Source: Acidobacteria bacterium RIFCSPLOWO2_12_FULL_66_21
GTDB lineage: Bacteria > Acidobacteriota > Vicinamibacteria > Vicinamibacterales > 2-12-FULL-66-21
DNA length: 64,000 nt
NCBI GenBank assembly: GCA_001767455.1
Contig: MELC01000084.1
Span: 55,340 to 119,339, forward strand
Reading direction: 5' to 3'
In this document: piece by piece, positions 13,621 through 41,807 of the stretch
How positions within the stretch are numbered: the first letter of the stretch is position 1
How the letters are laid out: every line of letters starts with the position of its first letter
Notes under the pieces: generated by a model
The model's input: only the letters and a program-made list of their open reading frames with translations
Told to the model about the DNA's origin: nothing
The model's database searches: none
Program-made: the position numbers and the translations under genes

Positions 13621-13741
13621 GGTGAAGAGCGAGGTGTGAAGGACCGGCAACCGGCCGAAGTCGTCCGTATGGACGGTTCGAGCTTGTTGCCGCTGACTTC
13701 ACCCTTCGCCCTTCACGCTTCACCCTTCACTCCTCGCTCTT
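13621..13741. repeat. nested inverted word array, convergent gap
   Basis: The outer arm AAGAGCGAGGTGTGAAGG (13625-13642) pairs, with one mismatch, with the complement at 13724-13741. Inside are CGGCAAC/GTTGCCG (13644-13650 with 13686-13692) and a CGTCC-GTAT-GGACG hairpin (13662-13675). Between arm and core lie repeated CTTCACCCTTCAC words (13697-13730). The whole gap can fold as one multi-stem structure, and its right arm supplies the last codons and stop of the minus-strand gene. It is probably transcribed from both sides as a 3' structure. Confidence 0.75.
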
Positions 13742-15238
13742 GTAGAGGGCAACCCCGCCTCCCTCGGCCACCCGCGTGAATCCTTCCAGGAAGCGCGGGT
13801 TGTGCTTCGCGTCGAGGTACAGCGCGTCCCCCCCTTCGGCTTTCTCCTCGATGGCAACCCAGCCGGCGTGTCCGCGCGCGCCCAGCATCGCGAAGGTCCA
13901 GATCTCTCCGTTTCCCTCGTGCAGGAAGTCGTGGATCGAGAAGCCGGCCTGGGACAGGTCCTGCATGTAGTGGCCGAGCGAGCCCATGCTCATCATGATG
14001 GTGCGGCCGTCACGATGTTGCGCGAGGTACTCGGTGACGGCCCGGCGCCCCGCCATGTTGGCCGCGTCGCGCTGCGATTCGAGGACGAGCGGGGACTGGC
14101 GGTCGAGCGGACGTGCCTGGTAGACGGCGGCGGCGATCAGGACCGCGGCGGCAAGGGGGCGCAGGGGCCGCCACAACACACCGATCCCGGCCCCCGCAAG
14201 CGCCGCGCAGGCGGCGACGAGTGGCACATCGTACCGGATCCGGAACGGATGCCCCTGCATATACGCGTACCAGGGCAGCGCCGCTGACGCGGTGAGGGCA
14301 AGCACCAGCAGCAACGACGCGCGCGCGCGCGAGCGCAGCCAGAGGTAGGCAACGAGCGCCACCCCCGCGTCCGCCGACCAGACGAGCGCGGGACCCGTCA
14401 CGCGATAGAGGCCATCGCGCACCTGGTGCCACGCGGCAAGCGGATGCCCCATCGCCTCCACGTTCTCCGGCACGAAGAACCCGCCGGAGACGAACCACGC
14501 CCCGACCGTCCACCGGCTGTTGGCGGCGAACACGACAACCGCGACGAGGGGGTAGGCCGCAAGCCGGACGCAGGCGAGGGTCGCCTCGCTCAGAGCAAGC
14601 CCGCGTCTGAGCAATGCGAGCCAGGCGAACAGAATCAGCGCCGCCGTAATCGGCCATGCCTCGTAGCGCGTCAGGCAGGCAGCGGCGATGGCCGTGCCGG
14701 CTGCCCCGGGCCAGCCGTGGGCGCGGCCGTCGACCCACGCAGCCGTCAGCGCGACTGCGAGCATTGTCGTGCCGAAGAGCAGCGGCTCGGTCATCGGCGT
14801 GCTCTGGAGGTACAGCACGTTGGGATTCAGCAGCAGGAGAGTCGCGGCCGCAACGGCGCCGCTCGTCGATCCGGTCGTGCGCACGATGATCGACGCAAGC
14901 GCCCATGCGGCCATTGCCATGCTCAGGATCGAAATCGCGACCCCCGAGGCGCCGCTGCGATACAGGCCGTCGATCTGTACCGGCAGCAGGTTGAGCACAT
15001 GTGGCAGCGGCAGCCAGACCGCGCCGATCTGCTGCCAGCCTGGCGTGAGGCTGTCCATGATGCGCCGCGCGACGACGAGGTGCGCGCGCGCGTCGTAGTG
15101 GCTGAGCGTCAGGCCGGCTCGCGCGTAGTAGATCGCCGCGGCCGTTCCCCCCGCCATCACGGCGGCCGCGATCGCGATCGGCAGGAGCCTGTGCGCCGGG
15201 CGTGCGGCGTCCGGCGACGGTGGGGTCGTCGTGAGCAC
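13727..15238 (-). CDS. GT-C (GT39-like) membrane glycosyltransferase
   Basis: About 503 residues with roughly 10-12 TM helices. An N-terminal periplasmic loop carries LSHYDARAHLVVARRI and the WLPLPHVLNLLP segment typical of GT39/mannosyltransferase-like proteins that use polyprenyl-phosphate sugars. The C-terminal soluble part (EYLAQHRDGRTIMMSMGSL) is a small alpha/beta domain found in these families. GTG 15238 is chosen; a TTG 18 bases upstream is possible. Its final codons (KSEE stop) lie in the repeat arm at 13724-13741. Sugar and acceptor unknown. Confidence 0.8.
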   Translation of the reverse strand: MLTTTPPSPDAARPAHRLLPIAIAAAVMAGGTAAAIYYARAGLTLSHYDARAHLVVARRIMDSLTPGWQQIGAVWLPLPHVLNLLPVQIDGLYRSGASGVAISILSMAMAAWALASIIVRTTGSTSGAVAAATLLLLNPNVLYLQSTPMTEPLLFGTTMLAVALTAAWVDGRAHGWPGAAGTAIAAACLTRYEAWPITAALILFAWLALLRRGLALSEATLACVRLAAYPLVAVVVFAANSRWTVGAWFVSGGFFVPENVEAMGHPLAAWHQVRDGLYRVTGPALVWSADAGVALVAYLWLRSRARASLLLVLALTASAALPWYAYMQGHPFRIRYDVPLVAACAALAGAGIGVLWRPLRPLAAAVLIAAAVYQARPLDRQSPLVLESQRDAANMAGRRAVTEYLAQHRDGRTIMMSMGSLGHYMQDLSQAGFSIHDFLHEGNGEIWTFAMLGARGHAGWVAIEEKAEGGDALYLDAKHNPRFLEGFTRVAEGGGVALYKSEE

Positions 15239-15264
15239 GGCGGTTAGTCTACACAACTCCGGCC

Positions 15265-15304
15265 ATGACTATCGACTATCGACCATGACTATCGGCTATC
15301 GACT
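15265..15304. repeat. GACTATCGACTATC word array, divergent gap
   Basis: Direct copies of GACTATCGACTATCGACC-like words separate the divergent GT39-like and DedA-like genes. The same words occur in reverse complement at 20305-20322 and directly at 60737-60762. No inverted partner is present here. Confidence 0.65.
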
Positions 15305-15328
15305 GACACCTGTTCACTCCGAGTGTTC

Positions 15329-15341
15329 TACACTCTGCAGC
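15329..15341 (+). promoter_or_regulatory. -10 box next to the DedA-like start
   Basis: TACACT (15329-15334) is followed by seven bases and then the ATG at 15342, giving a predicted leader of about one base. A weak CTGACA lies 20 bp further upstream. No Shine-Dalgarno is present. Confidence 0.35.
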
Positions 15342-15947
15342 ATGAAACGTATCGTCGCGTGGACGATGGGCGCCGCCGTGGCCATGGGCGGGCCCGGCCT
15401 TTTCCTCATCGCGCTCCTCGATTCGTCGTTCCTGTCGTTTCCCGAGGTGGTCGATCTGCTGCTGATGGGGCTCGTCACGCACCACAAGGAGCGGATGGTT
15501 TTCTACGCGCTGATGGCCACGCTCGGATCGATCGTGGGCTGCTTCATGCTCTACGCGGTCGGGCGGAAGGGGGGCGAGGCCTTTCTGCGCAAGCGCTTCC
15601 ACGAGCGGCACGTCGACCGGGCGCTCGCGGTCTTTCAGCGCTACGGACTGCTCGCCGTCGCGGTGCCGGCGATCCTGCCACCCCCGGTGCCGTTCAAGCC
15701 GTTCGTGCTGGCCGCAGGCATCGCTGAGGTCCGGCCGCTGGAGTTCCTTCTCGCGGTCGCGCTCGGCCGCGGCGTGCGGTACTTCGGCGAAGGGGTGCTG
15801 GCGGTGTGGTACGGCGAGCGGGCCGTGGCGTTTCTCCGCGAGAACGCGAGGGTGGCGGGCCTGACGGCGGCCGCGCTCGTCGTCGGCGCCGCGCTGGCGT
15901 GGACCATCTGGCACCGCAGGTCCAGGAATTCCGCCGGAATTGACTGA
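15342..15947 (+). CDS. DedA/VTT-domain membrane protein
   Basis: A 201-residue membrane protein of the SNARE-associated/DedA (VTT) family; members translocate undecaprenyl phosphate or other lipids and affect envelope homeostasis. Features are an N-terminal re-entrant region (FLIALLDSSFLSFPEVVDLL), the central GRKGGEAFLRKR, and the prolines of VPAILPPPVPFKPFVLAAG, typical of the VTT helical hairpin. ATG 15342 gives a normal length. It lies directly before a GT2 gene with its own promoter overlapping the dedA stop. Confidence 0.82.
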   Translation: MKRIVAWTMGAAVAMGGPGLFLIALLDSSFLSFPEVVDLLLMGLVTHHKERMVFYALMATLGSIVGCFMLYAVGRKGGEAFLRKRFHERHVDRALAVFQRYGLLAVAVPAILPPPVPFKPFVLAAGIAEVRPLEFLLAVALGRGVRYFGEGVLAVWYGERAVAFLRENARVAGLTAAALVVGAALAWTIWHRRSRNSAGID

Positions 15948-15968
15948 CGCGCCGAAGCCGTTTACAAT
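15940..15968 (+). promoter_or_regulatory. consensus sigma70-type promoter for the GT2 gene
   Basis: TTGACT (15940-15945), a 17-bp spacer and TACAAT (15963-15968). The expected start is near 15975, about 18 nt before the ATG at 15993. The -35 box overlaps the DedA-like stop codon, so the GT2 gene can be transcribed apart from its upstream neighbour. Confidence 0.75.
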
Positions 15969-15992
15969 CAGCCGTTTGCCGCCAATTCAGTG

Positions 15993-16994
15993 ATGCCTCC
16001 AGAGATCTCGATCGTCGTGCCGATGCGCAACGAATCGCCAAACGTGGCGGAGCTGTACCGTGAGCTGACCGGCACGATGGAGGCGTTCGGCCGCCCCTAC
16101 GAAATCGTGGCAATCGACGACGGGAGCACGGACGATACGTTCGATCTCCTGGCCGGCCTGCAGGCGCGGGACCCGAGGCTGCGCATTATTCGGTTCCGCC
16201 GCAATTTCGGGCAGACCGCCGCGTTTGCCGCCGGCTTCGCGTACGCGCGCGGCCGATTCATCGTGACCTCGGACGGCGATCTCCAGAACGACCCGCGCGA
16301 CATTCCGCGCCTGGTCGAGCAGTGCGAGCGGGGCCCCGACCTCGTCGCCGGCTGGCGCAAGGACCGGAAGGATCCGTTTCTCAACCGCCGCCTGCCGTCC
16401 ATGATCGCGAACTGGATCATCTCGTTCGCGACCGGTGTGAAGCTGCACGACTACGGCTGCTCGCTGAAGGTGTTCCGGGCGGAAGTGGTCAAGCCGATGA
16501 AGCTCTACGGCGAGATGCACCGGTTTCTTCCGGCGATCGCGAGCGAGATGGGCGTCACCATCGAGGAGCGCGTGGTGAACCACCGCGCGCGTGTGCACGG
16601 GACGTCCAATTACGGAATCTCCCGCACGCTCCGCGTCATCCTGGACCTGGTGACGGTGAAGTTCCTCATCAGCTATTCGACGCGGCCGCTGCACATCTTC
16701 GGGCTGCTCGGATTCATCATGGGCTCGCTTGGCACGCTCGTGTGCGCGTGGCTGGCGTACCTGAAGTTCTTCGGCCACGAGGGCATCGGCAACCGGCCGT
16801 TGCTGCTGTTCGGGATCCTGCTCGTGTTCACCGGTGTTCAGCTCGTCACGCTCGGCCTGCTGGCCGAGATGCAGGCCCGCACCTACCACGAATCGCAAAA
16901 CAAGCCGGTGTACGTGATTCGCGAGATACGGGAAACGCTCCCGCTCGAAGGGGCGGAGCGCCTCGCAAAGGAACAGCAAGAGCGCGTCGGGTGA
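15993..16994 (+). CDS. GT2 glycosyltransferase, DPM1/GtrB-like
   Basis: A 333-residue protein with an N-terminal GT-A domain (VVPMRNESPNVAEL at the start, IDDGSTDDT, then SDGDLQNDP as the DxD metal site at about residues 94-96) and two C-terminal TM helices (about 235-255 and 270-292). This is the polyprenyl-phosphate sugar synthase layout: it would transfer a sugar from a nucleotide donor to undecaprenyl phosphate on the inner face. Start is ATG 15993; GTG 15990 immediately before it is also possible. The next truncated gene overlaps its stop as GTGA. Confidence 0.9.
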   Translation: MPPEISIVVPMRNESPNVAELYRELTGTMEAFGRPYEIVAIDDGSTDDTFDLLAGLQARDPRLRIIRFRRNFGQTAAFAAGFAYARGRFIVTSDGDLQNDPRDIPRLVEQCERGPDLVAGWRKDRKDPFLNRRLPSMIANWIISFATGVKLHDYGCSLKVFRAEVVKPMKLYGEMHRFLPAIASEMGVTIEERVVNHRARVHGTSNYGISRTLRVILDLVTVKFLISYSTRPLHIFGLLGFIMGSLGTLVCAWLAYLKFFGHEGIGNRPLLLFGILLVFTGVQLVTLGLLAEMQARTYHESQNKPVYVIREIRETLPLEGAERLAKEQQERVG

Positions 16995-17286: not shown

Positions 17287-20200
17287 ATGACTTCACAACT
17301 GTGTAAGTACGCATTCGCTTTTGCGTGTGTGGTGCTGACCACGGCCGCTCCGACCGCCACGCAACCCTCCGACCTCTTTATCTCCGAGTACATCGAGGGG
17401 TCGTCCAACAACAAGGCGATCGAGATCTACAACGGCACCGGCGCGCCCATCGACCTCGCGGCGGGGGCGTACAACATCCAGGTGTCCTTCAACGGCCTCA
17501 ACAACCCGCAGCTGACGATCAATCTGTCAGGCACCGTGGCTGACGGCGACGTCTTCGTCGTCGCCCACGCGCAGGCGAGCGCCGCAATCCTGGCCCAGGC
17601 CGATCAGACGAACGGGTACACCTGGTACAACGGCGATGATGCGGTCGTCTTGAGGAAGGGCACCACCATCATCGATGCGATCGGACGGATTGGCTTCGAT
17701 CCGGGCACCGAGTGGGGCAGTGGCGTGACGTCCACCGCCGACAGCACGCTCCGCCGGAAGGGCACCGTGTCGGCCGGCGATGCCAACGCGTTCGACGCGT
17801 TCGACCCATCAATCGAATGGGAGGGTTTTCCCGTTGACACATTCACGGGGTTGGGATGTTTCGCCGCGAATTGCGGATCGAACTTCCCGGTGAGTATCGC
17901 GTGCGGTTCAACTGTTGTGCTCCAGCAGGGCGGCACGGCGAACCGCGCCGTGACCGCGACCGACCCTGACGGCACGGTGACGAGCCTCGTCGTTTCGAGC
18001 GTCACCCCTGTTCCATTGTCGGGATCGATCAGCAGAACCTCCTTCACGGGCGCTTCCAGTGTCGGAGGGGTGGCGACCTCCGTCGTGACCGTCACTTCGA
18101 GCGTCCCTGCCGGCAGCTATTCCGTGCTGATGCACGCCGAGAATAACGACCCGACTCCACAAAGCGCCGAGTGCACCCTTGCGGTCAGTGTCACGACTCC
18201 GCCCGTCCTGGAGATCTTCACGATCCAGGGAAGCGGCGCCGCGTCGCCGTCCGTGGGTCAGGTGGTCCGGACGAACGACAACATCGTCACCGCGCTGGCG
18301 TGGGGGACCGCGGGATACAACGGGTTCTTCATCCAGACGCCGGATGCGCGCGCGGACGCGTCCGATCGGACGTCGAACGGACTCTTCGTCTTCACCGGCT
18401 CGGCTCCCGCGGTGAGCGTCGGCGACCAGGTTGACGTTGTCGCCAGAGTGGCGGAGTTCTTCACCCAGACCGAGCTGGTGAGCGCCGCCGTCACCGTGGA
18501 TTCGAGCGGCAATTCACTGCCGGCGGCCGTCCTGCTGACGCAGGTCGCGCCGGGCGTGTTCGTGCCGTCGCACGATCAGCCGTGGCCGCCCAACGAGTTG
18601 GAGCGCTTCGAGGGGATGCGCGTCCGCGTCGAAGATGGGCGCACGACCGCGCCCACAGACAACTTCGGCGACACGCCGATCGTCGCCGACAACACGCGTG
18701 CCTTCCGCGAACCGGGCATGGAATATCCGGGCTTCTTCGGCTATCCCGTGATCTGGGACGGCAATCCCGAGGAGTTCGAGATCAATCCTGACGGTGCAGG
18801 GCTGGCGGACGTCAGCTTGCCGGCGGGTTCGGTGATCCACGTCGCCGAAGGGCCGCTGGCGGTCTCGTTCAGCGATTATCAGATCTGGCCGACCACCTTC
18901 AGCTACACCGCGGCGGCGCTGCCGCGCCCGGTCCGCGCGCGCTATGCGGGCGAGCTGACGGTGGCCAGTCAGAACCTGCTGCGGTTCTTCGATGCGGATC
19001 CGACCAACGGGCCCGACGACGGGCCGGTCAGCCTCGCGCAGTACCAGGCTCGCCTCGCGAAGGCGTCGCTGCACATCCGCACGGTGCTCGGGGCGCCCGA
19101 CGTCCTCTCGCTCGAGGAGGTCGAGAATATCGGTGTCCTCACCGATCTCGCGGCGCGGATTGCGAGCGACGATCCGTCGCTCGTTTACAGCGCGTACCTG
19201 CTCGAGGGTAACGACATCGGCGGCATCGACACCGGATTCCTGGTGCGCAACACGGTGAGCGTCACTGCGCCCCTTGCGCAGGTTGGCGCGGATACGATCT
19301 TCGACTTCGAGTTGGATGGCAGTCTGCTGAACGATCGCCCGCCACTGGTACTCCAGGCGGAGTACGTCGCGAACGGCGCGCCGTTCCCGTTCACCGTCAT
19401 TGGCGTGCACAACCGGTCTCTCACCAATACCGAGGGGACGAGTTCCACCGCGAACCGCAATCGGCACAAGCGGCTGGAGCAGGCCACTGAACTCGCGCAG
19501 TACATCCAGTCGCTCCAGGTCGCCCATCCCGCGCGGCGCATCGTCGTGACGGGCGACTTCAACGCCTTCCAGTTCAGCGACGGTTACGTGGACGTCGTGG
19601 GCATCCTCACGGGGAATCTGGATCCGAACGGCGCGATTCTGCCGGGCGCCGACTACGTGGAGCCGAACCTCGTGGATCGCGTCAACGATCTGCCGGCCTC
19701 CGAACAGTATTCGTTCGTGTTCCAGGGCAGCGCGCAGGTGCTCGATCACATGCTCACGTCGCAGACCCTCAACGACTTCGTCAGGGGCCTCGCGTACGCG
19801 CGCGGCAACGCGGACGCGCCCGCATCGCTGCAGGCGGATCCGACCACGCCGCTGCGGACGTCGGATCACGACGGCGAGGTGCTGTTCGTGATGACCGATC
19901 ACGACGCTGACGGCGTGCCGGACGATGTGGACAACTGCTCGATCAGCCCGAACGCGAACCAGGCCGACTACGACGGCGACGGCCTGGGCGACGCGTGCGA
20001 TGCGGACGACGACAACGACGGCGTGGCGGATGTGACCGATGCCTGCCCGCTGTCGCTTGCGACGCCCGCGACGGTCGTCATCGATGCGTGCCACACGGGC
20101 ATCGCGGATCAGGTGTTGCCCACCGGCTGCTCGATTACTGAGTCTGTGCAGTCGATCGCCAACGCCTCGTGGACGCACGGGCTCTTCGTCAGCCGGGTCT

Positions 20201-20295
20201 CACATCTGGCGACGGACCTTCGCAAGGACGGATGGATTTCGAACAAGGAGAGAAGCGAGCTCGTGCGCTGCGCGGCCTGGGCGAATATACGGTGA
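17287..20295 (+). CDS. large secreted nuclease (ExeM/NucH-like) with lamin-tail domain
   Basis: A 1002-residue exported protein. It has a signal peptide (1-25), a lamin-tail domain (about 27-170, starting LFISEYIEGSSNNKAIEIYN), an Ig-like module (195-300), an OB/YhcR-like region (305-540) and an endonuclease/exonuclease/phosphatase domain (555-870). Catalytic marks there are VASQNLLRFF, LEEVENIG, TGDFNAF and the C-terminal SDHDGE. A thrombospondin type-3-like Ca-binding stretch (DHDADGVPDDVDNC, then DGDGLGDACDADDDNDG) follows, and a short C-terminal helical domain ends the protein. It is likely to degrade extracellular DNA, perhaps for phosphate or biofilm turnover. ATG 17287 is close behind a GAGGG. 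Confidence 0.88.
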   Translation: MTSQLCKYAFAFACVVLTTAAPTATQPSDLFISEYIEGSSNNKAIEIYNGTGAPIDLAAGAYNIQVSFNGLNNPQLTINLSGTVADGDVFVVAHAQASAAILAQADQTNGYTWYNGDDAVVLRKGTTIIDAIGRIGFDPGTEWGSGVTSTADSTLRRKGTVSAGDANAFDAFDPSIEWEGFPVDTFTGLGCFAANCGSNFPVSIACGSTVVLQQGGTANRAVTATDPDGTVTSLVVSSVTPVPLSGSISRTSFTGASSVGGVATSVVTVTSSVPAGSYSVLMHAENNDPTPQSAECTLAVSVTTPPVLEIFTIQGSGAASPSVGQVVRTNDNIVTALAWGTAGYNGFFIQTPDARADASDRTSNGLFVFTGSAPAVSVGDQVDVVARVAEFFTQTELVSAAVTVDSSGNSLPAAVLLTQVAPGVFVPSHDQPWPPNELERFEGMRVRVEDGRTTAPTDNFGDTPIVADNTRAFREPGMEYPGFFGYPVIWDGNPEEFEINPDGAGLADVSLPAGSVIHVAEGPLAVSFSDYQIWPTTFSYTAAALPRPVRARYAGELTVASQNLLRFFDADPTNGPDDGPVSLAQYQARLAKASLHIRTVLGAPDVLSLEEVENIGVLTDLAARIASDDPSLVYSAYLLEGNDIGGIDTGFLVRNTVSVTAPLAQVGADTIFDFELDGSLLNDRPPLVLQAEYVANGAPFPFTVIGVHNRSLTNTEGTSSTANRNRHKRLEQATELAQYIQSLQVAHPARRIVVTGDFNAFQFSDGYVDVVGILTGNLDPNGAILPGADYVEPNLVDRVNDLPASEQYSFVFQGSAQVLDHMLTSQTLNDFVRGLAYARGNADAPASLQADPTTPLRTSDHDGEVLFVMTDHDADGVPDDVDNCSISPNANQADYDGDGLGDACDADDDNDGVADVTDACPLSLATPATVVIDACHTGIADQVLPTGCSITESVQSIANASWTHGLFVSRVSHLATDLRKDGWISNKERSELVRCAAWANIR

Positions 20296-21543: not shown

Positions 21544-23691
21544 GTGCCCGCAGCCAACGCAGGTTCCCGCCTGTCCGACGGGCGTCAGCTCAACGTCGTC
21601 CTGTTCTCCGGCGGGCGCGGCGCCGGGGTGCTGACGCGGCAACTCGTTGGGAACCCCCAGGTTTCGCTCACGATCGCGATCAACGGGTACGACGATGGCG
21701 CGTCGACGGGGGAGGTGCGGCGGTTCCTGGGCGACAGCCTGGGCCCATCGGACTTCCGCAAGAACGCGTCGCGCCTGGCTTCCGAGCTGAAGTCCTGCAA
21801 CCCCGCGCTCATCGAGCTGCTGGACGCGAGGCTCCCGGCGGGGGCCACCGATGCCGATCTGCGGGCGGCGTTGGACGCCGTGGCCGGCGGTGCGGGCGAC
21901 CCGGCGATCGAAGCGCCGGCGGCACGGCTCGACATCGAATCGCGCGAGGCCCTCTCGCGCGCGCTGTCGCGATTCGCCGGCGAGCTCGGCGGCGGCCGCG
22001 CGTTCGATTTCTCGGACTGCAGCCTCGGCAACCTGGTCTTCGCGGGCCTGTTCCTCCTTTCCGCGCGCGATTTCAATCGAACGGTCGATGCCTACGCGGC
22101 GCTCGTGGGCCTGCGGCCGGGACTGATCGACAACGTGACGGACGGAACCAACGCCTGGCTCGTCGGCCTCGATGCCGGCGCGCGGCTCCTCGCAAGCGAG
22201 GAGGAGATCGTCGATGCCGAGCGGCCCAACAGTATCCGGGACATCTTCCTGATCGACCGGCCGCTGACGGCACAGGAGGCCGCTGCGATTCGCGAGTCAC
22301 CTGCGGCGGCTGAGGCGCTGCTGGAGGCACGGACGGCGCGCGTGGGGCTGAACCCCCGACTCGCCGGGCGGGTCGCCGCCGCCGATTTGATCATCTACGC
22401 GCCTGGCACGCAGCACTCGAGCCTGTTTCCGTCGTATTTGACGCCGGGGTTGAGTGCCGCGATTGTGGCCAACCTGACCGCCATCAAGCTGCTCATCACG
22501 AATATCCAGTCCGACGCGGAGATCGCCGGCCGGAACGCGCTCGACATCATCGGCCGCGCGGTGTTCTACCTGAAGGAAAAGGGACGGCTGCAGGCACCGA
22601 CCCCGTGCCTGATTACCCACTACCTCGTGAACGATCCGGGTTATTCGGAGAGCGAGAAGCCGTACGTTCCGCTCGGACCGATCGACACGATCGAGGATCC
22701 GCGCCTGGTGCGGATCGGAAACTACGAGGAAGGCGTGAGCGGCCGGCACGATGCGGCGCGCGTGCTTGCGCCGTTCATCGCGTCGATCCTGGGGCGCGAG
22801 GAGCGCCGGCGCGTCGCGGTCCTGCTGCACGACGCTGGGTCGATCAACAAGATCGCGCAGACCCTGCTCGAGATGGTCCGCGGCGGCATCGATCGGCTGC
22901 CCCTCGACCTCACCGTCTTCTACGGCAGCCGCGAGGCCCTCGACTCGCGATTCACCGGCAGCCTGCCGTTCGCGGTCCGGCGGTTGCCGGACGGCGACGC
23001 CTCGTTCGCGCGAGAGGCGCGCGCCGGCGGGTTCGATTACGTCATGCTGTTCGAGTCATCGGGCATGTACCGCGGCGAGGATCTCGCCGGCCTGGCGTCC
23101 CACTTGGGCGGCGGGCGGCTGGACGCCGTGTGGGGCAGCCGGCGGCTGTCCGTACGCGACATCGAGGAATCCTACCGGCTTCGGTACCGCAAGAACGCGT
23201 TGCTCGGCTTCATCAGCCACGCGGGCAGTCATCTGCTCAGCCTGGCCTATCTCGCGTTCTACCGCCGGTACATTTCGGACACGTTGTCGGCGGTTCGCGC
23301 GGTGCGGGCCGACGTCGCATTCGACCCCTCCGTGGATCTGACGGACAAGCGTGCGAATCACCAGATGCTCTCCGCCTTGCTCCGCCGGAAGGCCGAGATT
23401 CTCGAGATTCCGGTCCAGTTCTTCCCGATCTCGCCCGAGAAGGTAAAGCGCACGAGCCCCCTCGATGGGCTGCAGGCCCTCGGCACGCTCGTGTGGCGGC
23501 GGTTCACCGCGCGCGACGCGGACTCCGGGGCCGGTGTCGGCGACGCGGGTGAGGCCGTCCCGCAACAAGCCCGACCTGACCGCCTCCGCCAAGGCTCCGG
23601 CGAGTCCGCCGAAGCGCTGCGCGCGAAGGCGGAAGGTCGGGCCTACGAGAGGGCGGATGTGCCCCCGGCGGATCCGGAGCGGTTGCGCTGA
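21544..23691 (+). CDS. YvcK/CofD-like domain fused to a degenerate GT2 domain
   Basis: A 715-residue fusion. Residues about 15-345 match the YvcK/CofD fold: VVLFSGGRGAGVL at the nucleotide-binding turn, INGYDDGASTGEVRRFLG, GPSDFRKNASRLA, CSLGNLVFAGLF and ADLIIYAPGTQHSSLFPS. CofD transfers 2-phospholactate; YvcK controls envelope precursor metabolism. Residues about 425-655 align with the GT2 protein encoded two genes downstream (DAVWGSRRL, RYISDTLSAVR, AEILEIPVQFFPIS), but the metal-binding DAD is replaced by ESS (504-506), so the domain is probably not a metal-dependent transferase. The C-terminal tail (from about 660) derives from a repeat element. Start GTG 21544. First gene of a three-gene operon. 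Confidence 0.85.
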   Translation: MPAANAGSRLSDGRQLNVVLFSGGRGAGVLTRQLVGNPQVSLTIAINGYDDGASTGEVRRFLGDSLGPSDFRKNASRLASELKSCNPALIELLDARLPAGATDADLRAALDAVAGGAGDPAIEAPAARLDIESREALSRALSRFAGELGGGRAFDFSDCSLGNLVFAGLFLLSARDFNRTVDAYAALVGLRPGLIDNVTDGTNAWLVGLDAGARLLASEEEIVDAERPNSIRDIFLIDRPLTAQEAAAIRESPAAAEALLEARTARVGLNPRLAGRVAAADLIIYAPGTQHSSLFPSYLTPGLSAAIVANLTAIKLLITNIQSDAEIAGRNALDIIGRAVFYLKEKGRLQAPTPCLITHYLVNDPGYSESEKPYVPLGPIDTIEDPRLVRIGNYEEGVSGRHDAARVLAPFIASILGREERRRVAVLLHDAGSINKIAQTLLEMVRGGIDRLPLDLTVFYGSREALDSRFTGSLPFAVRRLPDGDASFAREARAGGFDYVMLFESSGMYRGEDLAGLASHLGGGRLDAVWGSRRLSVRDIEESYRLRYRKNALLGFISHAGSHLLSLAYLAFYRRYISDTLSAVRAVRADVAFDPSVDLTDKRANHQMLSALLRRKAEILEIPVQFFPISPEKVKRTSPLDGLQALGTLVWRRFTARDADSGAGVGDAGEAVPQQARPDRLRQGSGESAEALRAKAEGRAYERADVPPADPERLR
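23569..23642 (+). repeat. palindromic repeat element inside the yvcK-like coding tail
   Basis: A 74-bp element bounded by a perfect 9-bp inverted repeat GCCCGACCT/AGGTCGGGC, with an inner GCCTCCGCC/GGCGGA near-palindrome. It lies in frame and encodes the low-complexity tail of the preceding protein. The same terminal repeat forms the 20-bp palindrome at 38404-38423. Confidence 0.7.
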
Positions 23692-23695
23692 TCCG

Positions 23696-24442
23696 ATGTT
23701 GCGCCTTCTCATCATCCCCGCGGCGGGCGTTGGGTCGCGCCTGGGCGGCACCGTGCCGAAGGTACTCGTGCAGGTGGGCGGTGTGCCGATGCTCGATCGG
23801 ATTCTGGCGCTCCATGCCACCGCGGTGGACGGTGTCGTCGTGGTACTGCATCCGGCGTTCGCGGCGGAGGTGCAGCGCCACATCATGGCGCGGGCGGACC
23901 GCGACCGGATCGCGACCGCCATCCAGCAGGCGCCGACCGGCATGCTCGACGCGATCCTGGCGGCCGCGCCCGCCGTCGATCGCGCCGCGCCGTCCAGCAT
24001 CTGGATTACCTGGTGCGACCAGGTCGCCGTGCATCCGCATACGATCGAGCGTCTTGCCGCACTCACGTCGGCGCGGCCCGACGCTGCGATCGTGATGCCG
24101 ACCGTCACACGGACGGACCCCTACATCCATCTCGAGCGCGACGCCGCCGGACGGATCGTGCGCGTCCTGCACCGGCGCGAAGGGGACGCGATGCCGGACG
24201 CGGGCGAGAGCGACATGGGCCTGTTCGCCCTGTCCTCGCATGCGTACCGCGACCTTCTGCCGGCGTATGCCCGGGAGGTGGAAACGGGCGGCGCCACAGG
24301 CGAACGCAACTTCCTGCCGTTCATTCCGTGGGCGGCCGCGCGCGCGGCGGTGACGACCTTTGCGTGCGAGCACCCGATGGAAGCGGTCGGCGTGAACACG
24401 CCTGACGAGCTGCGCGCAGTCGAAGCGTATCTGGCGGGATGA
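23696..24442 (+). CDS. sugar-phosphate nucleotidyltransferase-like protein
   Basis: A 248-residue NTP-transferase (GT-A-like fold) enzyme. The N-terminal nucleotide-binding loop is IIPAAGVGSRLGGTVPKVLVQVGG (residues 5-28, last Lys probably catalytic). A metal-site Asp is in ITWCDQVAVH, and SDMGLFALSSHAY and ATGERNFLPFI are substrate-side segments. It most resembles enzymes that activate sugar-1-phosphates as NDP-sugars; IspD-type cytidylyltransferases share the loop. It lies 4 bp after the YvcK-like gene and overlaps the GT2 start. Confidence 0.82.
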   Translation: MLRLLIIPAAGVGSRLGGTVPKVLVQVGGVPMLDRILALHATAVDGVVVVLHPAFAAEVQRHIMARADRDRIATAIQQAPTGMLDAILAAAPAVDRAAPSSIWITWCDQVAVHPHTIERLAALTSARPDAAIVMPTVTRTDPYIHLERDAAGRIVRVLHRREGDAMPDAGESDMGLFALSSHAYRDLLPAYAREVETGGATGERNFLPFIPWAAARAAVTTFACEHPMEAVGVNTPDELRAVEAYLAG

Positions 24443-25134
24443 TGCCGACGCTGTCCGTTGTCATCCCCGCGTTCAACGAGGAGCGGTTCATCGGAACGCT
24501 CCTCCAGCAGATCCGCGCCGTCGATCTCGCGCGGCTCGGGATCGACAAGGAAATCATCGTTGTCGACGACTGCTCGCGCGATCGCACCGCCGACATCGTC
24601 GAGCAGATTCCGGGTGTGCGGCTCAAGCGGATGCCGGTGAACGGCGGGAAGGGACGCGCGGTGCGCGCGGGCATCGAGATGGCGTCCGGCGAGTACCTGA
24701 TCATCCAGGACGCGGACCTCGAGTACGACCCGAATGACTACATCCCCATGCTGGAGGCGCTGGTGTCCGGCCGGGGAGACGTCGTGTACGGGAGCCGCTA
24801 CATGGGACGCGGGCGCCACGCGAACCAGTCGCTGGCGGCGTATCTCGGCGGCCGGGGTCTGAGTATCGCCGCCTGGCTGTTTACCCGCCGTTACATCACC
24901 GACACCGTGACGGCGCTCAAGCTCTTCCACACCCGGGATGTGTCCGCGCTCCCGCTCGAGACGAGCGGGTTCGAGCTGGATCACGAGATCACCGCGCGGT
25001 TGTCGGCGCGCGGCCGCCGCATAGTCGAGGTCCCGATCCGGTACATGCCGCGGTCGCGCGAGGAGGGGAAGAAGATCGGCGCGCGCGATTGGTTCATCGC
25101 GCTGAGGACCTTTTTCCGCTATCGGAACGGGTGA
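24439..25134 (+). CDS. GT2 glycosyltransferase, DPM1-like soluble form
   Basis: A 231-residue GT-A enzyme: VVIPAFNEERFI at the N-terminus, VVDDCSRDRTADI for the nucleotide, GGKGRAVRAGIEMASG, and QDADLEYDP with the DxD at residues 91-93. No TM helix follows, so it is the short dolichyl/polyprenyl-phosphate sugar transferase type. ATG overlaps the nucleotidyltransferase stop (ATGA). It likely uses the NDP-sugar made by its neighbour. Confidence 0.9.
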   Translation: MMPTLSVVIPAFNEERFIGTLLQQIRAVDLARLGIDKEIIVVDDCSRDRTADIVEQIPGVRLKRMPVNGGKGRAVRAGIEMASGEYLIIQDADLEYDPNDYIPMLEALVSGRGDVVYGSRYMGRGRHANQSLAAYLGGRGLSIAAWLFTRRYITDTVTALKLFHTRDVSALPLETSGFELDHEITARLSARGRRIVEVPIRYMPRSREEGKKIGARDWFIALRTFFRYRNG

Positions 25135-25144
25135 AGATCACGAA

Positions 25145-25220
25145 GTTCTGAGTTGTGAGTCCTGAGTTTTGAGTTGTGAAACCTCGTAAACTCCGGCACT
25201 CAGAACTCAGAACTCACAAC
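25145..25220. repeat. AACTCAGAACTCAG inverted word array, convergent gap
   Basis: The left arm (25145-25179) is built of GTTCTGAGTTGTGAGTCCTG-like words. The right arm (25197-25220) is ACTCAGAACTCAGAACTCAC, its near complement. The loop is about 17 nt. The array fills the 85-bp gap between the GT2 stop and the convergent membrane protein stop, so both mRNAs would end in this hairpin. Confidence 0.8.
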
Positions 25221-27172
25221 TACTGAACGCGGTAAATGGCGACCTCGGCGTTGTGAAACGCTGGCGGAAAATACTGGGGCGCCCGATCGAACTTGGCTGC
25301 GCCTTCCGGATATGCTGCGCGCTCGACCCGATCGACGTAGATGTAGTCGATGCGCAGGGTGCGCGCGATCTTCCACGCTTCCGTAGGATCCGCTGTCGCA
25401 TACATCGTTCGAACGCGGTCCGCCTTCTGTTGGTACTCCGATTCCTGGAGCAGCGATATGGGCAGGCCTGCCGCCATGCGCCTGCCGGCGACGCTCGGGA
25501 TCAGGCTCCACGTCTCACGACCGCGCGCGGTGGGATCCATCTGCACGATCGCGTTTGCCGGCGTCGCGCCGCGGATCCAGGCGAGCGCCTGCCGCTCGGC
25601 GCTGGTCACCGTTACCGTCCACGGCCCGACGGGACTCTCGGAGAAATTCGTGATGTCCTGCGCGTTGTAGAGATCTATGGCGGTCGTCGGCGCGCCGGCG
25701 AGCAGCGCGAGGGCGGCAACGGCAATCGTGATACGGCGCCAGCGACGCTCCGCCGCGAAACCCACCGCAACCACCGCCGGCACGGCCACGAGAAACATCT
25801 GACCCGCGCGGAATCCAACCCATGATGCGTCCACGCTCAGGCGCACGAAATAGAGCAGCAGGAGCGAGAGCGCCGCGAGCAGTACCGGGGCGGTGACGTT
25901 GTGCGTTGTCGGCCCGCCTGGCCGCGCGCCCGCAACCAGACCGACCAGCGCCGGCACGAGAGCCGGACCAAGCGAAAGGAAAAGTGTGGCGACCGGCGCG
26001 TGGCGTGCGTCGCCCAGCCATCCCACCTGCAGCGCGCTGCCTCCGCCGGCCACCATCTGGTTGGCGGAGCACCAGGCGAGCGCGAGGGCGACAGGCACGA
26101 TGGCGATGGCATGCCGCACGAGGCGGCGCAGCGCATCTGGCGAGCCGGCCGCACGGATGAGCACGGTCGCGCCAAAGACCAGGCTGAAGATCCCACCCAC
26201 AAACGGATTCAGCATGACCGCGCCGCCGAGGGCCACGCCTGCGATCGCCGCCGCGGCCGTGGGTGCACCGCATCCGGCACCGTTGACGACCGCGATCGCG
26301 ACGAGACCCAGCGCATACGCCATCGAATGCTGCGGCACCCACCAGAAGCACCGCTGCAGCCCATCGACCCGAAGGCCACCCAGCCACCAGTTGCTGAGCG
26401 CATCGATGTTGAGATTGCCAACTTCCTCGAGTGGCATGCCGCGACTCCAGAACCGCCAGAGGGCGTAGAGACCCTCGGCGCTGGAAGCCACGATCGCAAG
26501 GCCGACCGCTGCGGCAACCGCACAGGCGCGAGGAACGGCCGTCCACGCCGCCAGAAAAATGGCGCTGACGAAGAGCAGTGCCGTCCCGACAGCATTTACC
26601 TTCAGGCTCGTTTCAACATCTCGCACAGCCTGCGGTCCCGCCCCGGCCGCGGCGGCGGGCAGCAGGAAATAGGTCCAGTAGTAATGGATGGGGCGGTTCG
26701 CGAGGTACGGGTTGCGCGGCGGCATGGAGAATTTCGAGATCTCCTCGACCAGCGCGGTGTGCCACACGAAATCGGCGGTGAAGTACGCCCGGTAGTAGCG
26801 ATTGCCGTCCGCATCGGCTGCCCCGGCGTTCGCGAGCGGTGGGACCGCGATGCACGCGGTCAGCAGCATCACAGCCATCCAATACGCGGTCGTGCGGCCC
26901 GTCCACGACGGCAGCACGATCAGCGCGGCTGGTGTGGCCCGCGCGGCAAACCACACCAGCAACACGGTCGCCGCCCACGCGGCGGCGAATCCAGGAAGGG
27001 CAGCCATGTTTGCCGCGATCGCGGCCCAAATCGCAAGAGCGGTGATCGGGTAACCGAGAAGACCTCCTACGATCCAGCCCGGGAGTCCACGTCCGAACAG
27101 GCGCCAACCAAGCGGCAGGCCCGGAACGAGCGCGAGGACGAAGACGACCGCGTACAGCACCGCGCCGCTCAT
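25220..27172 (-). CDS. large polytopic membrane protein, GT-C-like
   Basis: A 650-residue protein with about 14 TM helices. A conserved-looking periplasmic loop reads NPYLANRPIHYYWTYFLLPA, recalling the YYY/DUF2298 group of membrane proteins related to GT-C glycosyltransferases. A C-terminal soluble segment (RQALAWIRGATPANAIVQMD and so on) is typical of proteins with a terminal alpha/beta domain. Start ATG 27172 overlaps the stop of the LPG-synthase-like gene (ATGA); upstream open frame is spurious. The substrate is unknown. Confidence 0.78.
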   Translation of the reverse strand: MSGAVLYAVVFVLALVPGLPLGWRLFGRGLPGWIVGGLLGYPITALAIWAAIAANMAALPGFAAAWAATVLLVWFAARATPAALIVLPSWTGRTTAYWMAVMLLTACIAVPPLANAGAADADGNRYYRAYFTADFVWHTALVEEISKFSMPPRNPYLANRPIHYYWTYFLLPAAAAGAGPQAVRDVETSLKVNAVGTALLFVSAIFLAAWTAVPRACAVAAAVGLAIVASSAEGLYALWRFWSRGMPLEEVGNLNIDALSNWWLGGLRVDGLQRCFWWVPQHSMAYALGLVAIAVVNGAGCGAPTAAAAIAGVALGGAVMLNPFVGGIFSLVFGATVLIRAAGSPDALRRLVRHAIAIVPVALALAWCSANQMVAGGGSALQVGWLGDARHAPVATLFLSLGPALVPALVGLVAGARPGGPTTHNVTAPVLLAALSLLLLYFVRLSVDASWVGFRAGQMFLVAVPAVVAVGFAAERRWRRITIAVAALALLAGAPTTAIDLYNAQDITNFSESPVGPWTVTVTSAERQALAWIRGATPANAIVQMDPTARGRETWSLIPSVAGRRMAAGLPISLLQESEYQQKADRVRTMYATADPTEAWKIARTLRIDYIYVDRVERAAYPEGAAKFDRAPQYFPPAFHNAEVAIYRVQ

Positions 27173-28122
27173 GGCGTGCCCGTTCGTTCGGCCGGCGCGG
27201 ACGGGCCGATGGCATACAGCACGCCGCCGGGCAGACTGCCGACGACGCCGAGGACCAGGAACAGAACCGACAAGGCGAAGACGTGCGGAGCGGACACACC
27301 GCGTCCGACGAACAACGTGTCGAACGCGAGTTGTGTGGTGCCGAGACCGTTGATGGTCACCGGGATCTGCATAATCAGCAGTATCACGGGCACGAGCGCG
27401 AACCAGACGACCAGCGGAAGCTCGATGCCCAGCGCTTCGCCGAGACACCAGGCCTGGAGCACACGGATCGCCTGGACGAGGACCGACATCACCAGCACGC
27501 GGGCGAGCTCGACGTGATGATTCGCGTACCGGCGCACGGCTTCGGTGAGCGCGAGCGCAATCCTGTGCAGCGCGGCCCAGGGCACCGCGCGGGCGAGTCG
27601 CACGACGGCGAGCGCCGCCCGCTCGCTGAAGACGACGGTTGCCGCCGCCACGCAGGCCGCGAACGCCACACCGAGACTCCAGGCCATGCCCTGCTGCAGT
27701 CCGACGTCACGGGCCAGCGGAAGCGCGCACGCCCCGACGATCACCATGGACAGCACGCCAAGGACACGATCCATCAGCACCGACGCCGTCGATTCGGCGA
27801 GGTGCACGTCGTGCCGCGCGAGCGCGTAGGCCCGGTACATGTCCGCGGCGACGCCCGGCACGAAGTTGCTGACGAAGGAGCTGACGAAGAAGATGCGCAG
27901 CACAGCGGGGAAGGGAGGCCGCGTTCCCGGCGTCAGCGCGCTCAGCAGGTCGATCCACCGCAGCGCCATCAGCGTGCGATCGAAGAGCACGAGGGCCACC
28001 GCCACGCCGATCCAGCGGAGGTCCGCGCCCGCGGCCGCGTGGAGCACATTCGCCGGATCCGACTTGTAGAGGACGAAGGCCGTGAGGCCGACCGCGACGA
28101 GGAGGCGGAGAAGGCGCTTCAT
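27169..28122 (-). CDS. LPG-synthase-like transmembrane protein (UPF0104/AglD2)
   Basis: A 317-residue membrane protein with 7-8 TM helices of the lysylphosphatidylglycerol synthase/flippase fold without a transferase domain. Marks are RWIDLLSALTPGTRPPFPAVLRIFF, the FVSNFVPGVAADMYRAYALAR loop and the C-terminal MQIPVTINGLGTTQLAFDTLF. It probably moves or protects a lipid-linked intermediate. It stands between the radical SAM gene and the GT-C-like gene in one minus-strand unit. A paralogue lies at 36055-37059. Confidence 0.85.
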   Translation of the reverse strand: MKRLLRLLVAVGLTAFVLYKSDPANVLHAAAGADLRWIGVAVALVLFDRTLMALRWIDLLSALTPGTRPPFPAVLRIFFVSSFVSNFVPGVAADMYRAYALARHDVHLAESTASVLMDRVLGVLSMVIVGACALPLARDVGLQQGMAWSLGVAFAACVAAATVVFSERAALAVVRLARAVPWAALHRIALALTEAVRRYANHHVELARVLVMSVLVQAIRVLQAWCLGEALGIELPLVVWFALVPVILLIMQIPVTINGLGTTQLAFDTLFVGRGVSAPHVFALSVLFLVLGVVGSLPGGVLYAIGPSAPAERTGTP

Positions 28123-28135
28123 CCCGCCGCCGGAC

Positions 28136-29314
28136 CTAGGAGATCCGGCCTGCTTCTTCCGTCACCGGCAGCGTCTCGATATGCCGATCCGGATCGCGCT
28201 TCACCTTGTACGCGCGCTTCAGGAATTTCGCATAGGGCACGACCTGCTTCATGGCGCCGACGTTCACCTGGCAGGGGCTGAGGCAGGTCGGGCACACCTT
28301 GTCGATCAGATGCCGGCGGTGCTCGAGGTTGGACGCCTTGAAGTAGAGCGACTCCGCCGAATCGTCCAGCACGTTCCCGAGCTTCTCGGAATTCTCGCAG
28401 TAGTGCAGATCGCCCGTCGGGTTGAGCAAGAGTCCCTGGCTCTGGAACGGGCAGGGCATCGTCCGGTGATAGCCGTTGGCAATCATGTCCGCGTAGTGCA
28501 GGTACAGGAACGCCTGGCCGCTCAGCACCGATTCTTCCTGTACGCGATCGAGGAAGAACTTGCGCATGAACTCTTCCTCGCGCTTCTTGAAGCCGATCGC
28601 CTCCTCGAGCTCCTTGTTGTGGAGCATCGCGTCGGTGAACCGCAGCATGTTGAAGACGACGTCGAGGTCCTTCGTGCGGGCCCAGGCGAGGATGTTCTCC
28701 GCGTCGGTGAGGTTGGTGGCGAAGATCGTCGCCGCGATGCCGAACGAGAAGTTGTCGTAGGTCTTCGCCAGCGCGTGCATCGCCTCGATCGTCTGGCAGG
28801 CCTTGTCGAAGCCCTTCGTGACCGCGCGGACCTGGTCGTGGACGTCGCCGATGCCGTCGAGCGACACGCGGATGCTGACGAGAATCCCGTTCTTCGCGCA
28901 GAACTCGACGATCCGCGTGAGCATCGGGATGGCGCGTTTGGGCGTGAGCCCCGTGGTGTTGATCCCCAGTTTGCGCAGCCGCGGGAGGTGGCGCTGGAAC
29001 GTCTCCACCATCTCAGGCAGGTCGTTGCGCGTGGTCGGCTCGCCCCCCGAAATGTTCAGGTTCTCGACGGCGCCCCAGAACGGGTTGGCGAGGACCGGCT
29101 CGAGCTGTTCGAGCGTCATGTCCGACTTGCGATCGCCCCATTTCCAGTTGCTGCACATCGTGCAGCGGGCGTCGCAGACCCAGGTGCAGTTATAGATGAG
29201 GACCGTGGGCCGGATCGGGTGCAGCCTGGAGTTGACAAACGTATTGACGAGGTCGCGTGGAACACCCGCTGCGGTTTTCGCGAGGTACTGGAGTCGGAAG
29301 GTGTTGGTGGCCAT
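28136..29314 (-). CDS. radical SAM/SPASM enzyme
   Basis: A 392-residue enzyme. The SAM cluster motif is CDARCTMC (Cys47, 51, 54), preceded by TVLIYNCTWV, followed by the NISGGEPTTRNDL substrate/SAM loop. The C-terminal third holds further cysteines (TMPCPFQSQG, LHYCENSEKLG, VCPTCLSPCQ) in a SPASM-like layout for auxiliary Fe-S clusters. ATG 29314 is preferred because GGGAGG sits 9-14 bases upstream. It is the first gene of the minus-strand unit with the LPG-synthase-like and GT-C-like proteins. Its substrate might be a lipid or glycan intermediate; the sequence does not say. Confidence 0.88.
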   Translation of the reverse strand: MATNTFRLQYLAKTAAGVPRDLVNTFVNSRLHPIRPTVLIYNCTWVCDARCTMCSNWKWGDRKSDMTLEQLEPVLANPFWGAVENLNISGGEPTTRNDLPEMVETFQRHLPRLRKLGINTTGLTPKRAIPMLTRIVEFCAKNGILVSIRVSLDGIGDVHDQVRAVTKGFDKACQTIEAMHALAKTYDNFSFGIAATIFATNLTDAENILAWARTKDLDVVFNMLRFTDAMLHNKELEEAIGFKKREEEFMRKFFLDRVQEESVLSGQAFLYLHYADMIANGYHRTMPCPFQSQGLLLNPTGDLHYCENSEKLGNVLDDSAESLYFKASNLEHRRHLIDKVCPTCLSPCQVNVGAMKQVVPYAKFLKRAYKVKRDPDRHIETLPVTEEAGRIS

Positions 29315-29490
29315 TCGGGTGCGCCTCCCATGATACCGCATTGACCGATGAGCAGAAGCTCATTAGAATCAACTCCTTGTGCACCTCTGAGCCGTCCCCC
29401 GTCCGCAAGGAGAAACGCTGGCGCCTGTGCGACAGCAGCTTCGACGGACACATGACGGCCACCATGCGCGCGTTCATCCCCTGACCCCTT

Positions 29491-37127: not shown

Positions 37128-37156
37128 TTGACGTTTCGAGGCGCCTTTCCTACAAT
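37128..37156 (+). promoter_or_regulatory. consensus promoter for the GT4 operon
   Basis: TTGACG (37128-37133), 17-bp spacer, TACAAT (37151-37156). The GTG start at 37170 lies 13 bases after the -10, giving a leader of about 7 nt without a Shine-Dalgarno. Confidence 0.75.
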
Positions 37157-37169
37157 CAAAAATCACACC

Positions 37170-38369
37170 GTGAAGATCCTCATGATCGCTCCGGAGCCGT
37201 TTTTCGAGCCCCGGGGCACGCCGTTCAGCGAATTCCACCGCATTCGCGCGCTGACCGAACTTGGCCATACCGTGGACCTCGTGACGTATCCGTTCGGCCA
37301 GGACGTCAGGCTGCCGGGCTTGCGGATCTTCCGCGCCGTGCGGCCGCCCTTCATTCGCGAAGTGCGGATCGGGCCGTCGCTGGCCAAGATCCCGCTCGAC
37401 GTGACGCTCGCGGTCTCAGCGTTCCGGCGCGCGTTCGGCGGACGGTACGACGCGGTGCACTCGCATGAGGAGGCCAGCGTCATCGGCGTGCTGATCGCGG
37501 CCATGCTCGGCGTTCCGCACCTGTATGACATGCATTCGAGCCTGCCGCAGCAGCTCACGAATTTCGCGTTCAGCCGCTCGCGCATCCTCGCGGCGCTGTT
37601 CACGCGGATGGAGCGCTTCGTCATCCGCCGCTCGCGCGTCGTCGTCGTGATCTGCCCGCACCTCGAGCAGGTCGTGCACGGCATCGAGTCGTCGGTGCCG
37701 ACAGTGCTGATCGAGAATGCTCCGGGGGCGGGAGACGCGCCCGTCGATGGATCCGGCGGACGGATCCGGGCCGAGCTGGGCATCACCCCCGGGGCGCCGG
37801 TGGTGCTGTATACCGGGACCTTCGAGGCGTATCAGGGGCTCGACCTGCTGTTCGCGGCCGCGCGGCACGTGGTGGCCCAACGGCCTGACGCGCGCTTCGT
37901 GCTCGCCGGCGGCCGTCCGGATCAGATTGAGAGCGCGCGCGCGGAGGCCGAGCGCGCCGGCATCGCCAGCGCGGCCATTTTCGCCGGGCAGCGGCCGGCC
38001 GAGGACATCCCGCTGTTCCTCGACGCGGCCGACGTCCTCGTGTCGCCGCGCAGCACCGGGACGAACACGCCGCTCAAGATCTACCAGTACCTTCGATCCG
38101 GCCGTCCGATTGTCGCCACGCGCCTGCTGACGCACACGCAGGTGCTCGACGACGAAGTGGCGATTCTGACCGGGGCGGCGCCGGAGGATTTCGCGGCCGG
38201 GATCCTGGCCGCCCTCGACGATCCCGCTCGCGCCCGCGACATCGGCAGCCGGGCGCGGCGGCTGGCCGACACCAAGTACAGCTACGAAGCCTACCTGTCG
38301 AAGACACGCGTGGCCTGCGCGCACCTCACCGGGGAGGCGACGCCGCAAGTCGCCGGAGGCGTCGCGTGA
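37170..38369 (+). CDS. GT4 family glycosyltransferase
   Basis: A 399-residue GT-B enzyme. The N-terminal acceptor domain begins MKILMIAPEPFFEPRGTPFS, which carries the Gly-rich turn of GT4. The C-terminal donor domain has LYTGTFEAYQGLDLLFAAA, a Gly-rich loop LAGGRPDQIE, and the LVSPRSTGTNTPLKIYQYL segment in which the usual E-x7-E is replaced by Thr/Lys. Start GTG 37170 fits the promoter. The methyltransferase overlaps its stop, so glycosyl transfer and methylation are co-expressed. Confidence 0.88.
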   Translation: MKILMIAPEPFFEPRGTPFSEFHRIRALTELGHTVDLVTYPFGQDVRLPGLRIFRAVRPPFIREVRIGPSLAKIPLDVTLAVSAFRRAFGGRYDAVHSHEEASVIGVLIAAMLGVPHLYDMHSSLPQQLTNFAFSRSRILAALFTRMERFVIRRSRVVVVICPHLEQVVHGIESSVPTVLIENAPGAGDAPVDGSGGRIRAELGITPGAPVVLYTGTFEAYQGLDLLFAAARHVVAQRPDARFVLAGGRPDQIESARAEAERAGIASAAIFAGQRPAEDIPLFLDAADVLVSPRSTGTNTPLKIYQYLRSGRPIVATRLLTHTQVLDDEVAILTGAAPEDFAAGILAALDDPARARDIGSRARRLADTKYSYEAYLSKTRVACAHLTGEATPQVAGGVA

Positions 38370-40128: not shown

Positions 40129-40130
40129 AG

Positions 40131-41796: not shown

Positions 41797-41807
41797 GCGG
41801 GGCTTTA

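Follow-up and report, generated by a model that had tools for sequence, protein, structure and literature searches.

What does a glycosyltransferase domain that looks inactive do when it is fused to a YvcK/CofD-fold domain and encoded two genes upstream of an intact relative? The question is raised by the window analysed here, a stretch of 64,000 nucleotides from Acidobacteria bacterium RIFCSPLOWO2_12_FULL_66_21 (contig MELC01000084.1, positions 55,340 to 119,339; coordinates below are those of the window), in which the gene for this fusion is followed by genes for a nucleotidyltransferase and a family 2 glycosyltransferase (GT2). A first-pass annotation of this DNA had described the parts as a pseudo-enzyme, its intact homologue, a sugar activator and a CofD-fold domain, a description with which residue comparison, Pfam and fold matches agree. 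Our results indicate that the fused domain comes from polyprenyl-phosphate glycosyltransferases, has lost the residues for donor and metal and kept those for the acceptor phosphate, and that the gene set probably serves lipid-linked glycan synthesis. The genes and domains in question are the following.

21544..23691, + strand: fusion protein of 715 amino acids with a GTG start, YvcK/CofD-like plus pseudo-GT2 (open reading frame, Pfam, AlphaFold2 (AF2) model, Foldseek)
21583..22773, + strand: YvcK/CofD-fold domain, residues 14-410 (Pfam, NCBIfam, family profile, Foldseek)
22804..23508, + strand: pseudo-GT2 domain, residues 421-655, derived from polyprenyl-phosphate glycosyltransferases
23696..24442, + strand: GlmU-like sugar-1-phosphate nucleotidyltransferase, with K22, Q77, D108 and N234 kept
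24439..25134, + strand: intact GT2 of the AglJ/PpgS/DPMS type, with DADLEY at 24709-24726

The open reading frames lie where the fusion, the nucleotidyltransferase and the GT2 had been annotated, and Pfam agrees, placing CofD on the fusion (E 3.8e-14), NTP_transf_3 on the nucleotidyltransferase (E 3.9e-17) and Glycos_transf_2 on the downstream GT2 (E 2.9e-31). All three genes are on the + strand, with a gap of 4 nt between the first two and an overlap of 4 nt (ATGA) between the last two; a promoter and terminator scan found none. The fusion is the sole PF01933 protein of the 6.48 Mb genome. Orthologues with 57-66% identity are present in 11 further genomes from the same order. Counted more widely there are about 30 such fusions, in Acidobacteriota, Gammaproteobacteria and Myxococcota, which a fully supported branch (100/100) sets apart from the rest; this rules out an assembly artefact or a chance fusion. 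One genome (G006, L032:2474-4388) has the fusion in two overlapping open reading frames of 435 and 232 amino acids, either an assembly frameshift or a natural split.

The fused glycosyltransferase domain

A Pfam search of the C-terminal domain of the fusion matched no family. The annotation had nevertheless aligned this domain with the GT2 two genes downstream and had noted ESS in the place of DxD, and both points hold: over residues 440-654 the two share 30% identity (E 5e-9), and the downstream GT2 is the top match of the domain elsewhere in the genome, the next scoring 1.5e-5. A family profile of the domain matches the DPM synthase (DPMS) structure 5mlz (E 3e-5). Structure prediction, which had been proposed as a check, gave an AF2 model of the fusion with a mean predicted local distance difference test (pLDDT) of 91.4 and a predicted TM-score of 0.83, and Foldseek found the polyprenyl-phosphate glycosyltransferases ArnC, DPMS and GtrB to be the closest folds of the C-terminal domain. 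Sequence and model together indicate that the fused domain descends from these enzymes; it has the fold, the GSR motif and the acceptor-phosphate residues in common with DPMS, ArnC, GtrB, AglJ and PpgS and differs from them in the absence of the donor and metal residues, the downstream GT2 being the intact relative. The positions concerned are these.

23053..23070, + strand: ESSGMY (residues 504-509) at the DxD block position, where DPMS Asp91 and Gln93 correspond to S506 and M508
23134..23142, + strand: GSR motif, in which R533 corresponds to DPMS Arg117 (acceptor phosphate)
23188..23217, + strand: R549 and S558, corresponding to DPMS Arg131 and Ser135 (acceptor phosphate)

DPMS holds its metal with Asp91 and Gln93 and touches the sugar through Asp89 and the base through Asp39; the lipid phosphate has Arg117, Arg131 and Ser135 as its ligands (PMC5526996). 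The DxD block reads E504-S505-S506-G-M-Y in the fusion, against D-A-D-L-E-Y in the intact GT2, and the donor motifs PAFNE, VDD and DxD/Q are missing from the pseudo-glycosyltransferase, whereas PAFNEE, VVDDCSRD and DADLEY are all intact downstream. With Ser and Met in the place of the metal ligands, no substitute metal site, which the annotation had named as a finding that would count against it, was apparent in the domain; what is left is E504, at the position of DPMS Asp89. The ESS block is not a sequencing accident, since S506, M508 and Y509 are invariant in 26/26 aligned sequences of the subtype to which the window belongs; position 504 is acidic, Glu or Asp, in each of the 26. On the acceptor side R533 is present in 44/44 glycosyltransferase domains, S558 in 25/26 of the subtype and 40/44 overall, and R549 in 18/26 of the subtype.

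The two halves of the domain have fared differently. Mean column identity over 30 pseudo-glycosyltransferase sequences of the subtype is 0.49 for the donor half, against 0.68 for the part that starts with the DxD block, whereas 29 partner GT2s have 0.69 in both halves, and therefore only the donor half has lost constraint. To judge from its sequence the domain is no dead remnant, because conservation reaches 95% or more at S506-G-M-Y and at over 30 further positions.

Beyond this domain the fusion ends in a segment of a different kind.

23536..23691, + strand: C-terminal tail of the fusion, non-conserved, mostly a translated hairpin repeat (23570-23641)

The last 50 or so codons consist largely of a 72-bp repeat that folds as a stable hairpin, a dispersed element resembling repetitive extragenic palindromes that is read here as protein. 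At least 44 matches to it were listed genome-wide, with 40 of the 189 candidates scored, and the tail is missing from the orthologous fusions.

Conservation and subtypes of the gene set

That the genes form a dedicated set, as the annotation had supposed for a putative phospho-linked surface precursor, is borne out by their distribution, so that the second finding which it had named as counting against it, a lack of conservation as a set, did not turn up either. Among 60 related genomes, a nucleotidyltransferase orthologue was found in 12/12 with the fusion and in 0/48 without it (Fisher test, p = 7e-13 on the assumption of independent genomes, which are in fact related); 11 of these orthologues match at E 1e-70 or better, and the remaining one is a contig-end fragment with 57% identity. 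The GT2 orthologue tracks the same genomes, with 11 clear cases and one genome (G009) cut by a contig end, plus one fragment in G056. A wider sample comprised 81 loci from about ten phyla, picked solely by the CofD-like domain, and there the nucleotidyltransferase was nearby in 75 and the GT2 in 69, or in 73 and 70 under stricter clustering by shared ancestry, counts that are not independent given many close relatives, above all 28 loci of type 0 (see below). For type III, that of the window, the figures are 32/33 and 29/33, with one third of these loci near contig ends.

Gene order varies, and in several Acidobacteriota the nucleotidyltransferase-GT2 pair is inverted and lies a few kb away. 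Many relatives carry a further member, a HAD gene assigned to the beta-phosphoglucomutase group by TIGR02009 (1.7e-32). It adjoins the gene for the CofD-like domain at all 28 type 0 loci and at no fewer than 52/81 loci overall; none is next to the fusion of the window. It usually lies between the CofD-like gene and the nucleotidyltransferase gene, for example at L043:12143-12793, L105:11235-11885 and L111:11361-12017. In Nitrospina (L095:9221-11998) nucleotidyltransferase, CofD-like domain and glycosyltransferase form a single protein of 925 amino acids, followed by a GT2, and at a second type I locus the nucleotidyltransferase is fused too. Such natural fusions therefore favour channelling, for which CofC/CofD provide a precedent (PMC8764529).

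Four subtypes were defined over the 81 loci. Type III, in Acidobacteriota, Gammaproteobacteria and Myxococcota, has [ED]SSGMY or ECSGMY at the DxD position. Type II has [TS]GDG[EQ]Y-like blocks, the donor half and the nucleotide-binding motifs being gone, and is found in Cyanobacteria/Melainabacteria, Myxococcota, Binatota, Legionellaceae, Verrucomicrobiota and one Alphaproteobacterium. Type I, in Nitrospina, Bacteriovorax, Fluviispira and Pelagibacteraceae, still shows the GT2 donor motifs and has blocks like PSDDEY, and type 0, in Streptosporangiaceae, Thermomonosporaceae, Clostridium and Anaerocolumna, is without the glycosyltransferase domain. Types I and III each form one side of a well supported branch. 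When the tree was rooted on YvcK and FbiA, the outgroup branches measured 5-8 changes per site and the forks stayed open, and the order of the subtypes was left unrooted; the tree points to a single origin of the ESS type, and no order of decay is claimed. Types I and II keep the DPMS metal-binding Asp (506) and mostly Glu or Gln at 508, and may still bind donor or metal, so that loss of the metal site is claimed for type III alone.

These patterns bear on whether the C-terminal domain could still transfer a sugar, through an altered, metal-free site that uses E504. The constancy of an acidic residue at 504 and the near invariance of S506-G-M-Y imply that the site is selected for something, relatives have D at 506 and mostly E or Q at 508, and the D91A variant of DPMS has residual activity (PMC5526996). 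The nucleotide-binding motifs of the donor half, however, are missing in types II and III, and constraint there is relaxed, which makes an active but unusual glycosyltransferase very doubtful.

The YvcK/CofD-fold domain and the catalytic partners

The N-terminal domain resembles three known groups. Its best curated NCBIfam family, as for several other members, is TIGR04357, the CofD-like protein of the GAK system (1.4e-24, 87.2 bits, cut-off 340), and a GAK system was rejected at 87 of 340 bits and with no ATP-grasp partner found in a search of the genome. The similarity to YvcK/GlmR (UPF0052; 2hzb, 2o2z) extends over the full length, with a profile of 68 relatives matching 2hzb across the whole domain (1.3e-25), and includes the DD...GD motif and the fold; by target TM-score, Foldseek placed the AF2 model nearest to YvcK 2hzb (0.83), ahead of CofD 3c3e (0.65) and FbiA (at most 0.59). 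The score against the YvcK/GlmR family TIGR01826, however, is 40 bits against a cut-off of 196, and the domain differs from YvcK/GlmR in having GRG for the GTG loop, Ser for Asn198, about 80 extra residues, a fused glycosyltransferase and other gene neighbours.

In CofD/FbiA and CofC/FbiD a CofD-fold protein likewise stands beside a nucleotidyltransferase; both metal-ligand Asp positions are shared, and the donor is likely to be of the form NDP-X (NDP, nucleoside diphosphate). The nucleotidyltransferase of the set is GlmU-like by sequence and structure search, however, with GlmU as its nearest match, followed by UGPase and RmlA, CofC/FbiD not being closest, and Actinobacteria with the set carry FbiA as a separate paralogue. 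In Streptosporangiaceae and Actinomadura loci (L121-L123, L126-L128, L130-L132) three separate PF01933 proteins were seen, namely YvcK, FbiA and the CofD-like protein of the set. Co-occurrence with F420 genes had been suggested as a check and gave a negative answer in this genome, where no CofE was found and CofG was below the cut-off; F420 synthesis is thereby excluded for it. We do not place the fusion in the YvcK, CofD or GAK family, because for each of them a defining feature was looked for and was not there.

Conservation was counted over the 68 relatives, and the motifs were placed in register with the help of the FbiA and YvcK paralogues of set-bearing Streptosporangiaceae and Actinomadura genomes.

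21691..21696, + strand: D50-D51, the DD pair of YvcK/GlmR, with D50 corresponding to FbiA Asp45 by motif alignment
21751..21753, + strand: D70 in GPSD70FRKN, corresponding to FbiA Asp57 by motif alignment

The metal ligands of FbiA are Asp45 and Asp57 (PMC7253369), and by this register the equivalent D50 and D70 are each invariant (68/68), among 37 invariant columns of the domain. Listeria GlmR is reported to have uridyltransferase activity on N-acetylglucosamine-1-phosphate and UTP, for which D40, D41 and N198 are needed (PMC10128056). This raises the alternative that the domain makes or remakes an NDP-sugar in the same way and that the pseudo-glycosyltransferase just serves to anchor it at the membrane GT2, allowing channelling, and D50 and D51 do occupy the positions of D40 and D41. 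D51, however, is Asp in 50/68 and Asn in 18/68, N198 is replaced by Ser (S297) in 68/68, and the set already contains a complete GlmU-like nucleotidyltransferase, even fused to the domain in some loci, so that we regard a second nucleotidyltransferase as improbable.

A regulatory role fares a little better, although it too is on the unlikely side. Here the CofD-like domain would be a sensor of NDP-sugars of the YvcK/GlmR type, and the pseudo-glycosyltransferase would form a mixed oligomer with the GT2 and switch it according to NDP-sugar supply. Fold and sequence are nearer to YvcK than to CofD, the YvcK of B. subtilis binds uridine diphosphate (UDP) sugars (PMC5482804), and the pseudo-glycosyltransferase is homologous to the adjoining GT2, the subtypes with an AglJ-like partner (I and III) including those with an AglJ-like fused domain. 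Against this, the polar residues that never vary in the active site of the CofD-like domain have a catalytic appearance, Thr13 of YvcK, which contacts UDP-GlcNAc, is Arg (R25) in the fusion, and type II keeps the fused glycosyltransferase domain but neighbours a GT2 of a different family.

The two remaining proteins keep their catalytic residues or motifs. The catalytic residues of GlmU include K25, Q76 and D105 (PMC10128056). In the nucleotidyltransferase family K22, D108 and N234 never vary and Q77 is conserved to 90% or more, and the model (pLDDT 97) has the uridyltransferase domain of GlmU as its best structural match (query TM-score up to 0.87). We take N234 to be the equivalent of the catalytic Asn of GlmU, and the motif GMxxA stands in the place of GTAHA. 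The enzyme has no acetyltransferase domain, unlike GlmU; it is likely to be active on a sugar-1-phosphate, because the GlmU-type fold and the catalytic Lys, Gln, Asp and Asn are kept. The downstream GT2 resembles AglJ and PpgS, which load sugars onto polyprenyl-phosphate.

A possible division of labour and its genomic setting

Sequences and predicted models give the gene anatomy, the conservation of the set, the loss of donor and metal residues and the retention of acceptor residues; for the catalytic steps, the acceptor and the product we offer a tentative scheme, which we hold to be possible though somewhat short of an even chance. In it the three genes would form the conserved core of a pathway for activating the phosphate of a sugar, or of a sugar-like compound, and charging a polyprenyl-phosphate carrier with it. 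First, the GlmU-like enzyme would make an NDP-sugar from a sugar-1-phosphate, and in many relatives the beta-phosphoglucomutase-like HAD enzyme would supply or remove the phosphate. The YvcK/CofD-fold domain would then bind the NDP-compound with Mg2+ and transfer the phospho-sugar with release of the nucleoside monophosphate, as in CofD/FbiA; in a looser reading it would serve as a binder of the NDP-sugar. The pseudo-glycosyltransferase, which would bind no donor, might hold and present the phosphate of polyprenyl-phosphate, or dock onto the GT2 and the lipid. Finally, the intact GT2 would put a sugar on polyprenyl-phosphate for use by neighbouring membrane glycosyltransferases. A bolder version, which we consider unlikely, would make the fusion the member of a new fold class among phosphoglycosyl transferases, a soluble one in which the CofD-fold domain would move a sugar-phosphate from an NDP-sugar to polyprenyl-phosphate and the decayed glycosyltransferase would be a docking module for the lipid phosphate. 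Such a transfer is the reaction of the membrane enzymes of the WecA/PglC type.

Several points weigh against the proposed division of labour. Members from Streptosporangiaceae and Clostridium carry all or some of the set but no glycosyltransferase domain, and docking in cis is therefore not essential. In 8/26 sequences of the subtype the position of R549 is taken by Gln, His, Ser or Lys. We know of no CofD-fold enzyme that uses a lipid phosphate. Although the Asp pair is also found in YvcK/GlmR, these proteins are reported to bind UDP-sugars or to be uridyltransferases, so that D50 and D70 are no proof of phospho-sugar transfer, and the GlmR N198 position is Ser in the fusion.

Around the set, 13727-16994 and 25220-29341 hold genes for lipid-linked glycans, several of which recur beside the set in relatives: a PMT-like glycosyltransferase, a UptA/DedA-like protein, an ArnC-like GT2, a radical SAM protein, a membrane protein of 742 amino acids with a partial chlor_Arch_YYY match and a flippase-like LPG_synthase_TM protein. 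The UptA/DedA-like, flippase-like and ArnC-like GT2 neighbours fit lipid-linked glycans. Far downstream, at 37128-45622, GT4, methyltransferase, epimerase and membrane genes stand in a row. A counterpart of this row directly adjoins the set in another genome (L023:1-7104), which makes it probable that the set is part of a larger glycan locus. Searches of plasmid and phage collections gave no match and no sign of mobile cargo. On visual inspection, the open reading frame of 1002 amino acids at 17287-20295 resembles a secreted nuclease carrying thrombospondin type 3-like, calcium-binding repeats.

The annotation knew of no description of the set, and a literature search for the set, for CofD-like proteins, the GAK system and inactive glycosyltransferases likewise found none, nor one of the fusion, most subscription journals and all preprints being outside its scope. 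The parts are known folds; their combination, the series of subtypes and the conserved acceptor half appear to be new. From Acidobacteriota to SAR11 and Streptosporangiaceae, bacteria share a broadly conserved and apparently undescribed cassette, probably for a lipid-linked glycan precursor, whose members are likely to be annotated merely as separate CofD, HAD, NTP-transferase and GT2 proteins. For the YvcK/CofD fold it is a probable third biochemical setting, beside F420 synthesis and the control of peptidoglycan precursors, and the forms of its glycosyltransferase domain, from near-intact to decayed, amount to a natural experiment on the loss of a donor site with the lipid site kept.

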